A stretch of DNA of 21,161 nt from the IMG/VR virus record IMGVR_UViG_3300020469_000308, positions 1 through 21,161 of that record; one strand, written 5' to 3'. The notes under the pieces are model-generated. The model had not been told where the DNA came from, ran no database searches, and saw only the letters and a list, made by a program, of their open reading frames with translations. Positions 2,456 through 6,489 of this stretch are shown piece by piece. Each line of letters starts with the position of its first letter. Position 1 is the stretch's first letter. Made by a program: the position numbers and the translations under genes. Source of the DNA: a virus.

Positions 2456-4309
2456 TTATAAAACAATATTTTCCCAGGCTTTAGAAGAACTTTTACCATT
2501 ACCACCAAACGTAATGCTAGATTGTTTATTGTTATTATTACTTCCTGCACTCGCCACACTAGTAATATTTGTTCCCCCTGCGGAATAGTTACTAGGTATG
2601 TTCTGTGCTATAGTGTTTAAAGATTTAGCTGCTTGACCTAATTTATCAACGGTAGAAGAAAGATCATCCACAAAAACCTTATCATTTTTTAATTCATAAT
2701 CTTTAAGCAAATCTTTCATTCTACGGCCGTCTATATAATCTTGGCGACGATCTTTTTGTGATATTATTTCACCACCAGCTCTATTTAATGTGCTGCCACC
2801 TACACCACTTAAATCCTCAACACCTGATTTCATAGCAGCTTCTGCGTTTAATTTATCATCACTACTTTTAAATTTTAATTGCTTCAACGAATTAGCGGCT
2901 TTATCAAAACCCAACTTTTCCGCCACAGTAGCTATTCCATCAATAACTGAGTTAATTATACTATACAATACATCAAAAACACCATCAACTAATTTGCGGA
3001 TTATGTTTTCTATTTTAAATGAGTCTAAAAACGTTTCCGCTTTTTTAAATCCTAATGCCCCTAATGCCCATGAGATTACAGACTTTAATAAATCTAAAGG
3101 CATGCCTATAAAACTTCCTAAAAATCCCCTTACACCACCTTGAAACCCTTTAAAATATTTTTGATATCCTTCTGCTTTATCAAACTCTTCTTTTCCTTCT
3201 TTCATACCATCATATAAAGATAATGCTACACCAATTGGATAAAATATTTTTCCTAATAGAGAACCCAATTTTCCAAGAGCTGTTACTATAGGGTTCTTTT
3301 TAATAAAATTCCAAACCTTAGATAATGGCTCAGTAACAGATTTTAAACTAAACCCTTTTACTAGATCTGTTGTATAGGTTTTAAGTCCGGTAAACGCACT
3401 TCGCAATCCAATAATAATATCATCAAAGGGATTTTGCAATACACTAGATATCATTTTAGGTATTCTGGATATAGATGTCAATATTCTTGCAACCATACCT
3501 TCACCTTTAAAAATATTTAATATTGATGCTCTTAATTTAGCTAACCTCTCTGATATTGTAGTGCCTGCATTTCTGAAAGCTTCAACACTCATTGTTCTAA
3601 ATCTGGAAACATTATTAGCAATATTATTATAAAATAATTTTAAATTGGCTTTAATGTTATCAAATTTTAATGCTGTACTTAATTTTGTAAGTAATGCCGT
3701 TATACCTGTTAATTTGCCTACAGCCTTAATCCATTTAAGTGTGCCAGCTTTCAATGCAGATAAGAAGTTAGTTGCAAATGCAGATATTCCACCAATAATT
3801 AAACCTGCCAGCATCAAAGGGCTCATTCCTTTTTTATCTTTATCTGACGATGGTGTATTATCATTAGCAGCTGTAAACATTGGAGCACTTTGCACATCTA
3901 ATTCTTTTCTTGCTTGATTAATAGCTAGATCCTCTTTTAATTCTGCAAGATAACTTGTATTATCACTTATCATTCTGAGTTGAGATAAAACCCCACTCTC
4001 TGTTAGTGTTCCTAATTTATTAAGTGTATTTAAATTCTTTTCACCTGTCTTTTTAATAGCATCTAAATTATCATTATTATCATTCGTAGCACCTAATAAG
4101 TCAGCATAATTTTGGGATAGAGAACCTTTTAAATCACCAAGTCCACTTGACATAACTGATTTTAAAGTTAATATCTCAGGCCCTATTATTCCTGCAACTC
4201 CAACTTTAGCAGTAGTCTTAACTGTGTCTTTTATTGAGTCTGTAATTACTTTGCCAAAAGCGCCAACACCAGCGGTTGCTTTTTGTCTCATATTAGGTAA
4301 AGGTGCCAT
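2456..4309 (-). CDS. probable tail tape-measure protein (gp29-like)
   Basis: A 617-residue protein, similar in length to T4 gp29 (590), the tail-length ruler and hub component. The N-terminal 45 residues are Ala/Gly/Thr-rich. A long polar helical region follows (about 60-140, SQNYADLLG, LGTLTESGVLSQLRMISDN), then a hydrophobic segment (about 162-186, MSPLMLAGLIIGGISAFATN). Further hydrophobic or amphipathic stretches lie near 340-370, 395-420 and 438-465, separated by basic helices. The C-terminus is Ser/Asn/Gly-rich and ends KAWENIVL. This layout of helices with buried hydrophobic segments fits tape-measure proteins. It lies downstream of the gp26-like tail-assembly pair, as expected for a tape measure served by those chaperones. 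Its ATG overlaps the preceding stop (TAATG). No direct sequence motif proves the role; the 683-aa protein at 11532 is a less likely alternative ruler. Confidence 0.65.
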   Translation of the reverse strand: MAPLPNMRQKATAGVGAFGKVITDSIKDTVKTTAKVGVAGIIGPEILTLKSVMSSGLGDLKGSLSQNYADLLGATNDNNDNLDAIKKTGEKNLNTLNKLGTLTESGVLSQLRMISDNTSYLAELKEDLAINQARKELDVQSAPMFTAANDNTPSSDKDKKGMSPLMLAGLIIGGISAFATNFLSALKAGTLKWIKAVGKLTGITALLTKLSTALKFDNIKANLKLFYNNIANNVSRFRTMSVEAFRNAGTTISERLAKLRASILNIFKGEGMVARILTSISRIPKMISSVLQNPFDDIIIGLRSAFTGLKTYTTDLVKGFSLKSVTEPLSKVWNFIKKNPIVTALGKLGSLLGKIFYPIGVALSLYDGMKEGKEEFDKAEGYQKYFKGFQGGVRGFLGSFIGMPLDLLKSVISWALGALGFKKAETFLDSFKIENIIRKLVDGVFDVLYSIINSVIDGIATVAEKLGFDKAANSLKQLKFKSSDDKLNAEAAMKSGVEDLSGVGGSTLNRAGGEIISQKDRRQDYIDGRRMKDLLKDYELKNDKVFVDDLSSTVDKLGQAAKSLNTIAQNIPSNYSAGGTNITSVASAGSNNNNKQSSITFGGNGKSSSKAWENIVL

Positions 4310-4638
4310 TATTTTTTAACCAATGCTTCTTTAGCGTAAAATGCTGCTACTATTGCTGCAACCGATACAAAATATGTAGGCGCCATATCTCCTAATATTT
4401 TACCCGCAGTATCTAGTCCTACCCATGTTGCAATGACAACTGCAAATGGATATAATAACATTCCAAATAAAGCAAACCATGCCATATTTCTTTGTGCATC
4501 TGCTTTTTTATCTTCATTCTCTAGTCTCATTAATTTACTGCTCATTTCAAGTTCTTCATCACTAACAATTCCATCACCATCAATATCAAATTCATCATAC
4601 GAGGAATTTGGTTGTAATGTCTTTGGTTTTTTAGCCAT
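4309..4638 (-). CDS. small EF-hand protein with two membrane spans
   Basis: A 109-residue protein. After a short basic, polar N-terminus comes a canonical 12-residue EF-hand loop (residues 18-29) with D18, D20, D22, G23 and E29 in the Ca2+-ligand positions. A charged helix (about 30-50) follows, then two hydrophobic segments: about 52-75 (AWFALFGMLLYPFAVVIATW) and about 85-102 (YFVSVAAIVAAFYA), with a KEALVKK tail. Similar EF-hand plus two-span proteins are, from memory, frequent in marine T4-like phages, with unknown function. Size and topology would allow a holin or another membrane role, but its place between the tail-assembly chaperones and the tape measure suggests a tail or DNA-entry role. 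The start overlaps the previous gene by 8 bases, and the stop overlaps the tape-measure ATG by one. Confidence 0.85.
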   Translation of the reverse strand: MAKKPKTLQPNSSYDEFDIDGDGIVSDEELEMSSKLMRLENEDKKADAQRNMAWFALFGMLLYPFAVVIATWVGLDTAGKILGDMAPTYFVSVAAIVAAFYAKEALVKK

Positions 4639-4798
4639 TATTTTTATCCTTCTCTGCTTCGAGGTGTGCTACCAACATATCAACATAAAGATCCCTTTCA
4701 AATGGTATAATATTTTCAATTTCTGTTATTGAGTATTTATGATGTTGAACCATCGAAAATACTATTTGATAATATGAGCTTAAATTCGTATAGCTCAT
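4631..4798 (-). CDS. small tail-assembly protein in the -1 frame after gp26 (55 aa)
   Basis: A 55-residue ORF missed by the usual 60-residue cutoff. It begins with YTNLSSYYQIVFSMVQHHKY, continues with SITEIENIIPFERDLYVDML and ends in a charged EAEKDKNNG tail. The pattern of an aromatic helix, HH, a short S-T-E-I helix and an ERDxYVxxL helix looks like the small protein following gp26 in marine T4-like phages and, more loosely, like the second part of tail-assembly chaperones. Its ATG (4798-4796) overlaps the gp26-like TGA in an ATGA junction, has no ribosome-binding site, and lies in a hairpin stem. The same frame is open upstream into a T7 slippery run, so it may be made as a 292-residue gp26 fusion. 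It overlaps the EF-hand gene by 8 bases. Coding status is strong from gene packing; function is inferred. Confidence 0.82.
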   Translation of the reverse strand: MSYTNLSSYYQIVFSMVQHHKYSITEIENIIPFERDLYVDMLVAHLEAEKDKNNG

Positions 4799-4813
4799 GC
4801 ATACATAAAAAAA
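4774..4813 (-). promoter_or_regulatory. candidate programmed -1 ribosomal frameshift signal
   Basis: On the minus strand the gp26-like gene ends GAT TTT TTT ATG TAT GCA TGA. The T_TTT_TTT heptamer (4813-4807) fits the X_XXY_YYZ rule with the correct zero frame. After an 8-base spacer comes a perfect 7-bp inverted repeat, ATGAGCT (4798-4792) and AGCTCAT (4780-4774), around an 11-base loop. A -1 slip reads Tyr-Val-Cys and then enters the 55-residue ORF at its Met without a stop. Heptamer, spacing and structure match known -1 recoding signals; actual use is not shown. Confidence 0.6.
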
Positions 4814-5508
4814 TCGGTTAAGCCTTGCAGGGTCCTTTCTTTAATTCCATCTCTGGTTTGGTATTTAATCGTATGTTTTAATTTAGGTGCATCTTCAAAA
4901 AATTGATTTATTTTTTTAAATGTTTCTACAGATAATCCTTCAAGAAAAGTTGTCTTTTCTGTAGTTGTACTATCAGATAATACCCAAACCTCTTCATTAG
5001 TAAATAATTTATCAATACATTCAGTAATAAATTTAAAACTATTATCAGTATTCATATCAGCAGATCCTATTTTAGAAATAGTAGTGAATGAAGGATATTT
5101 CATTTGTAATTTATATGTATCATCTATATCAATAATATTATTTGGCTCATCTGGAAATATAACATTAACATCTTCTAAATCTAATTCATAATTAATCTGT
5201 TCACCACCATCACCAACACTATCATCTAAAAATGATAATTTCACTACATTGCCTACACTGATATTTCTTAATCTTACAAAAAGATATTCTAAATCAAATG
5301 TTGGTAAATTGGTAACATCAACATCTCCTTGTATACAATTTTGTACTATTTGTTGAATAGCGGTTAATATTTGTATTTGATCATTTGATTCAAGTGCTAT
5401 TAATAATATCTTTTCATCTTTGACGAGAAAGGGTCTTACTCTTATTTGTTCTTTTGTTGATGGTATGGTCAAATTAAATAGAGGTTGGTCTATTTTTGGA
5501 AGGGCCAT
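4795..5508 (-). CDS. 26: gp26-like baseplate hub / tail assembly protein
   Basis: A 237-residue protein; T4 gp26 has 208. The N-terminus MALPKIDQPLFNLTIPST, the VRPFLVKDEKILLIALES helix (residues about 24-41) and PTFDLEYLFVRLRNISVG (about 68-85) are typical of the T4 gp26 family (Pfam T4_baseplate). In T4 it is needed for hub assembly; in marine relatives it occupies the tail-assembly-chaperone position before the tape measure. A GGAG ribosome site lies 8 bases before the ATG. It follows the gp54-like gene by 18 bases. The last codons form a T7 slippery run before the TGA, and the next ORF continues in the -1 frame, which suggests a long (about 292 aa) and a short (237 aa) product. Confidence 0.85.
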   Translation of the reverse strand: MALPKIDQPLFNLTIPSTKEQIRVRPFLVKDEKILLIALESNDQIQILTAIQQIVQNCIQGDVDVTNLPTFDLEYLFVRLRNISVGNVVKLSFLDDSVGDGGEQINYELDLEDVNVIFPDEPNNIIDIDDTYKLQMKYPSFTTISKIGSADMNTDNSFKFITECIDKLFTNEEVWVLSDSTTTEKTTFLEGLSVETFKKINQFFEDAPKLKHTIKYQTRDGIKERTLQGLTDFFMYA

Positions 5509-5526
5509 AATATATACTCCTAATAA

Positions 5527-6489
5527 TTAAAAATTTAAATTCGATGCAACTAATGATGCATTATTCATCAAATTCACAGCATCACCTACAGATCGTGGTG
5601 ATTTAAATGTTGATATTGTTTGTGCTATAGATCCTATTTTTTGTAGTTTATCTCCAAGTGATAATGACTTGCCTGTGCTTGGTGATGATCCTGATATATG
5701 TGATGATGTCCAATTACGGTACATGAAGCCAACTGGCAGCAATGCGATTTCATCATTAGCAGACCAACTTAAAGACACATCTCCTATTTGCACAGGATAT
5801 GCACCATGAAATGTATATTGTGTAATAGGACTTCCGTCGGGTTTAAGATGAGTCAATCTCAACTCATCATGTATATAATCATCATGATAACCAAATTCGA
5901 ATGGTTGAGCCTCTTTACTATTTAATGTTTGTACAGAATGCATATCATTACCATTGACATTGTAATTAAAAACCTGATTTAATGAATTATGAAAAAACTT
6001 CATTATCATACCACCATTATCTAATGTAAATGTAAGTGTTAATTGATCTACAACACCAGAGTTAGGTCTTCTATCTGTCATACCATATCCATGTTGTTTA
6101 AAATCAATCGGAGCTAATGAGATTCCTGGCATTATTGCTGAATTACAAAAAAAGTATAAATTTTGTTGCACATCAGCCATTTGCATAGGTTTTTCACCCA
6201 ACCCACCTGCTAATTTAGATATTCTATTTACAGCACCTGCAGCAGTTGAAAGAACACCTGTTGCTGAACTAATTTGCCCCGCCACACCTTTCATTCCAAT
6301 ACCTTGTGCTATTGATCCAACACCTGCTAATGTGCCAGCAAGATTATTTAATTTATCACCTAACGATAATGATTTCTGTTTAGTCATCCATTTAGGAGCA
6401 CTAAATTCAACATAAAATAAATTAGGTCTAGCAAGTCCACCAGCTTGATCTATCTTTGATTTAAATTCTCCAATATTGAAACCTGGCAT
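5527..6489 (-). CDS. gp54-like baseplate tail-tube initiator (gp19 tube fold)
   Basis: A 320-residue protein, the same length as T4 gp54, which sits on gp48 and starts tail-tube polymerisation. The opening FNIGEFKSKI and GGLARPNLFYVEF, then NLYFFCNSAIMPGISL (residues about 109-124), LTLTFTLDNGG (about 150-160) and YTFHGAYPVQIGDVSLSW are the gp19/gp54 tail-tube pattern. A hydrophobic Gly/Ala-rich insertion (about 45-98) lies between the first strands. KSLSLGDKL occurs exactly twice, at residues 39-47 and 274-282, each followed by a GSIAQ segment. A plain gp19 tail tube would be shorter (T4 about 163), so the initiator role is preferred; assignment to a tube-type protein is firmer than the exact name. 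The ATG overlaps the upstream stop by one base (TAATG). Confidence 0.65.
   Translation of the reverse strand: MPGFNIGEFKSKIDQAGGLARPNLFYVEFSAPKWMTKQKSLSLGDKLNNLAGTLAGVGSIAQGIGMKGVAGQISSATGVLSTAAGAVNRISKLAGGLGEKPMQMADVQQNLYFFCNSAIMPGISLAPIDFKQHGYGMTDRRPNSGVVDQLTLTFTLDNGGMIMKFFHNSLNQVFNYNVNGNDMHSVQTLNSKEAQPFEFGYHDDYIHDELRLTHLKPDGSPITQYTFHGAYPVQIGDVSLSWSANDEIALLPVGFMYRNWTSSHISGSSPSTGKSLSLGDKLQKIGSIAQTISTFKSPRSVGDAVNLMNNASLVASNLNF

Follow-up and report, generated by a model that had tools for sequence, protein, structure and literature searches.

The gp26 locus in the window

The window, by which we mean the whole 21,161-nucleotide stretch of viral DNA analyzed here (IMG/VR record IMGVR_UViG_3300020469_000308), carries on its minus strand a gene for a 237-aa T4_baseplate family protein, gp26 or TAC-N (4795..5508, minus), which matches PF12322 (E 8.4e-55) and the baseplate hub family phrog_150 (E 1.1e-59). 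The 3' end of this gene, read directly on the minus strand, is GAT TTT TTT ATG TAT GCA TGA, so that a slippery heptamer T_TTT_TTT (4807..4813, minus) lies in the gp26 frame and three sense codons (ATG TAT GCA) separate it from the stop. The heptamer is followed by an 8-base spacer (4806-4799, minus) and a perfect 7-bp inverted repeat (4774..4798, minus), whose arms, ATGAGCT (4798-4792) and AGCTCAT (4780-4774), enclose an 11-base loop. From the slip site the -1 frame stays open as far as 4631 and contains a 55-aa ORF (4631..4798, minus) whose ATG overlaps the gp26 stop (ATGA), with no stop codon between the slip site and this methionine. An HMM search matches the ORF to phrog_634, the baseplate hub assembly catalyst (E 8.5e-23), and we refer to it as gp51, the C-terminal extension of TAC-NC. 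A further match of the ORF (E 0.003) is to the gp26 family phrog_150, in its C-terminal part (240-276), a hint that fused members of this family exist. Translation across the slip predicts a gp26-gp51 fusion of 292 aa (4631..5508, minus), with the predicted junction peptide ...DFFYVCMSYTNL... in the window and ...QSFFRISMFYNN... in phage S-PM2. A sequence-only reading of this DNA had proposed the slip site, the phase, the 8-base spacer, the 7-bp/11-base repeat and the 292-aa fusion, and all of these proved exact when we re-read the letters; it had also described the small ORF as lacking a ribosome site, and our own search before it found no Shine-Dalgarno-like sequence.

The gene order in the window is a tail-tube-like gene, gp26, gp51, one 109-aa ORF and then a 617-aa ORF. 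The tail-tube-type protein (5527..6489, minus) lies upstream of gp26 and matches phrog_45 (tail tube, E 3.8e-33). The 617-aa ORF (2456..4309, minus) occupies the place of a tape measure gene, and from its position and size only it is presumably the tape measure protein; a BLASTP comparison with T4 gp29 gave no useful similarity. A large ORF of at least 575 codons is found near this position in all 20 loci with enough sequence. The 109-aa ORF (4309-4638, minus), which separates gp51 from the putative tape measure gene and is additional to the lambda-type order, contains the motif DIDGDGIVSDEEL, which resembles a calcium loop, and after it a hydrophobic segment; the EF-hand match of this ORF (E 0.009) is below the cut-off. 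In relatives, DxDGDG motifs of this kind can be seen downstream of gp51. The window differs from the named T4-like phages in belonging to a marine lineage, its gp26 being at most about 44% identical to that of any named phage record found. One IMG/VR contig encodes a gp26 with 99% identity and is probably the same virus.

Phase and slip site among relatives

Relatives were gathered from viral contigs and annotated phages and searched, without regard to frame, with an HMM that combined the annotated small gp51 proteins with the C-domain of T4 gp51. Where gp51 was found it lay in the -1 frame relative to gp26 in 203 of 204 loci, and the single exception was T4, whose gp51 is a natural in-frame fusion. 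The HMM gave no match in ten loci: five contigs that run out within or at gp26, the T-even records L212 and L213, and the divergent Vibrio phages L122, L123 and L209, in which a gp51-like frame can be seen by eye in -1. We rejected the -1 phase alone as evidence of frameshifting, since many neighboring pairs in the window share it (8 of 18 same-strand pairs, gp26/gp51 included).

After the -1 loci were collapsed at 90% gp26 identity, an in-frame T_TTT_TT[C/T/A] was present within the last ten gp26 codons, in the same register as in the window, in 162 of 166 loci, counts which, like the p-values given below, overstate independence because the relatives share ancestry, so that tiny nominal probabilities are taken as direction only. 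The heptamer is T_TTT_TTC in 108 of these loci, T_TTT_TTT in 44 and T_TTT_TTA in 10, and all 162 can be read in -1 from the slip into gp51 without meeting a stop. The earlier proposal of a -1 frameshift from gp26 into the next ORF is thus upheld by the relatives, which keep both heptamer and phase. The codon before the slip ends in T in every one of the 162 (AGT, GAT, TCT, AAT, GCT, GGT or CAT) although these seven codons encode six amino acids (Ser, Asp, Asn, Ala, Gly and His), and the first Phe codon of the slip is TTT in 162 of 162, compared with 77% of the other Phe codons in the same genes. As judged from the sequences, these codon choices are what tandem re-pairing would need, and protein-level constraint does not explain them. 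The window itself has a GC content of 31% and seven in-frame T_TTT_TT[TCA] heptamers per ~6,900 codon positions, of which only the one in gp26 lies within 10 codons of a stop; it is conservation across relatives that puts the signal far beyond chance.

The four loci without the heptamer are Ackermannviridae. In total, seven Ackermannviridae or Ackermannviridae-like loci (L121, L206, L207, L208, L122, L123 and L209) lack a canonical heptamer yet have gp51 in -1, and heptamer and phase are therefore imperfectly linked in the wider family. In place of T_TTT_TTY these loci have ATT TTC ATT TAA (GAG ATT TTC ATT TAA in the Ackermannviridae junction), CTT TTC or CTT TTT, and gp51 is start-less in at least the Det7-type Ackermannviridae phages. 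Bakedbeans (L210), of the same gp26 clade, retains GAT TTT TTC, so a secondary loss or alteration of the heptamer is possible. In the jumbo Agrobacterium phage Atu_ph07 (L124), the gp26 homolog ends CAT TTT TTC GCA TGA and is accompanied by a long open -1 frame with a PYER-like core; this junction is probably the same frameshift with an insertion.

Candidate RNA signals and the proposed origin of two products

The 54 nt past the slip are predicted to be more stably folded in relatives than synonymous recodings of the locus in question (mean MFE -8.9 versus -5.1 kcal/mol), with a mean z of -1.76 compared with -0.2 to -0.5 in ten control windows (Wilcoxon p 2e-22, taken for its direction). In the window, the total downstream stability is better than that of ~97% of synonymous recodings, an excess at about the 2-3% level, and there are two competing predicted folds: the 7-bp hairpin, a possible stimulator, and a longer pairing that takes in bases further 3'. 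A perfect 7-bp repeat of this geometry occurs in 8% of synonymous recodings and in 10% of relatives, and a column-by-column comparison found no helix of at least 6 bp common to both large groups, so we rejected the exact hairpin as a conserved element. Of the hairpin proposed in the sequence-only reading, what stands is the elevated downstream structure, which is seen family-wide; the specific 7-bp hairpin is not conserved and is near chance. According to these predictions, the candidate downstream stimulator would be a raised level of structure throughout the family, built from lineage-specific helices.

A second candidate element lies on the other side of the slip. In 64% of relatives, compared with 10% in the control, the 22 nt that precede the slip include a Shine-Dalgarno-like stretch, which nearly always ends 8-10 nt before the slip (e.g. 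GAGGG in L041-L118). The Glu-Gly pair encoded here uses GAG over GAA at 69:19, compared with 579:1442 elsewhere. The dnaX frameshift has an upstream Shine-Dalgarno-like stimulator, and by analogy the GAGGG-type element of the relatives could possibly act in the same way. In the window, no such element is present at the 8-10 nt spacing.

We suggest that gp26 very probably holds a programmed -1 ribosomal frameshift site that yields both gp26 and the 292-aa gp26-gp51 fusion. The majority of ribosomes would read GAT TTT TTT ATG TAT GCA TGA and stop, producing gp26 (TAC-N, 237 aa), while a minority, aided by RNA structure just downstream, would slip back by one base as tRNA-Phe re-pairs on T_TTT_TTT and read on in the gp51 frame to give the fusion, the long chaperone TAC-NC. 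If they work as lambda gpG/gpGT do, the short and long forms would cover the tape measure protein and bring in subunits of the tail tube. We infer both that slippage occurs, at some frequency, and that the products act as chaperones. If so, the small ORF is the tail end of a frameshifted protein whose fused form is equivalent to the whole of T4 gp51, rather than a short gene.

The main alternative is that there is no frameshift: gp51 would be a small gene of the usual kind, with termination-reinitiation at ATGA to start its translation, and the T run a chance feature of an AT-rich genome. The overlap of the window's ATG with the gp26 stop is a common coupling arrangement, the same 4-base overlap occurs in another gene pair of the window (601-852/849-1445), and in 59 of 156 relatives an ATG is found either at the gp51 core helix or before it; independent translation of the window's own 55-aa ORF by such coupling is possible. 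As an account of the family, reinitiation is very unlikely. Most relatives, 91 of the 156, carry no ATG, GTG or TTG either at the core or before it, in keeping with the frameshift claim, and a Shine-Dalgarno-like site precedes gp51 in only 5 of the 65 that have a start codon. The heptamer is kept throughout nearly the whole set, and the codons before and within it are more restricted than their amino acids require. From slip to gp51 core there are 34 codons in 148 of 156 relatives, although the gp26 stop varies from 0 to 8 codons past the slip; the conserved length thus begins at the slip, as it would in one protein.

A fusion could in principle also arise if RNA polymerase slipped on the T run to give mixed mRNAs, a reading for which the seven-T run of the window and the eight-T run of some relatives (GATTTTTTTTAA) speak, but which we find scarcely credible: the commonest heptamer has six T, which is short for polymerase slippage, whereas the strict X_XXY_YYZ register with a last base of C, T or A is required for tandem tRNA slippage, and the raised downstream RNA structure likewise counts against it. 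There is next to no chance that a sequencing or assembly error split one fused gene. Homopolymer runs are error-prone, but this split recurs at the identical position in more than 160 non-redundant contigs and genomes of isolates, mostly as six T then C, and is present in the isolates S-PM2, phiM19, Mosig and Melnitz-1.

Returning to the frameshift reading, public annotations do hide the fusion that we predict from the sequences. In public records gp51 is either omitted (ACG-2014j, L033) or begun at an internal Met (Melnitz-1, L034; Mosig, L035; Vibrio 1.081, L036), and proteomic searches based on such annotations would therefore miss the long protein. A broader version of this reading, which we put forward tentatively and regard as possible rather than probable, is that marine gp51 exists only as a frameshift extension, with no free gp51, served by the upstream Shine-Dalgarno-like element in most relatives and by lineage-specific downstream structures, and that the start-less -1 gp51 of the Ackermannviridae depends on a degenerate slip (G_ATT_TTC, A_CTT_TTC or G_CTT_TTT). 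If true, the Ackermannviridae slip would be an unusual -1 site in which good re-pairing is provided by the second codon only.

T4 genes 26 and 51 and other tail chaperones

The relation to T4 becomes clear when T4 gp51 (249 aa) is compared with the family profiles. PF12322 matches it over 1-201 (E 3.9e-52) and phrog_150 over 3-248, and the small-gp51 family phrog_634 matches at its C-terminus, 147-246. A direct comparison of the window gp26 with T4 gp51 gave nothing useful; it is the family HMM matches to T4 gp51 that settle the relation. On these profile matches, T4 gp51 is a gp26-like domain joined to a gp51 C-domain, the same two-domain layout as the predicted fusion but in one gene. T4 gp26 thus resembles the short form and T4 gp51 the gp26-gp51 fusion of marine phages, and T4 would obtain the same pair of products from separate genes, the short one from 26 and the long one from 51. 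These T4 genes are divergently transcribed, in contrast to the single frameshift locus of the marine phages, and the end of T4 gene 26 (GAG TTC TTT GAG) has no T_TTT_TTY.

An unrooted tree places the T-even gp26 and gp51 N-domains together on one side of a branch with support of 98, although some end branches are long, and this is consistent with duplication having replaced frameshifting in the T-even lineage. The trade-off between frameshifting and gene duplication becomes directly testable within one protein family. It was remarked in 2010 that the gp51 of cyanophages and marine vibriophages lacks the first ~200 residues (PMC3037559), as would be expected if the small gp51 is only the C-terminal part of a frameshifted protein.

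The chaperones of lambda (gpG/gpGT), P2 (E/E') and Mu are also -1 frameshifted, with no sequence similarity to the window shown. The lambda slip is G_GGA_AAG, in contrast to the T_TTT_TTY of the gp26 family. An AlphaFold model of gp26 (pLDDT 82) gave the HK97 tail assembly chaperone 2ob9 as the match of highest probability among the PDB matches listed (0.57/0.51); at E 1.4-1.8 this is not significant, and the likeness in fold is a weak hint.

The TAC-N and TAC-NC of T4-like phages, which we take to be gp26 and gp51, fit the homology found here. Vladimirov, Gautam and Davidson (Virology 2022, 566:9-15) reportedly identified the tail assembly chaperone genes of T4-like phages, and the study is reported to describe frameshifting as conserved in several T4-like groups, with T4 genes 26 and 51 as the version that uses separate genes. 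The sequence-only reading had held that T4-type phages are not generally credited with such a frameshift, which is incorrect, as PMC12846349 credits the 2022 work with poly-T -1 slippery sequences in T4-like TAC-N genes. The PRFect paper (PMC10885494) cites the same work for T4-like phages that, in place of frameshifting, have two chaperone genes, a short one and a long fused one. By these accounts, the T4-like chaperones resemble the window in having a short TAC-N, a long TAC-NC and a poly-T -1 signal. The frameshift principle in T4-like chaperones was therefore already published in 2022, and what the window offers is a well-supported, independent rediscovery of it in a new lineage. Less expected are the upstream Shine-Dalgarno-like element of most relatives and the -1 gp51 of the Ackermannviridae without a canonical heptamer. 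For other phage families, the Vandenendeviridae and Andersonviridae, PMC12846349 describes a -1 frameshift that is likewise conserved where TAC-N ends; its poly-T motif, given as GTTTTT, is invariant, and nothing blocks the -1 frame.
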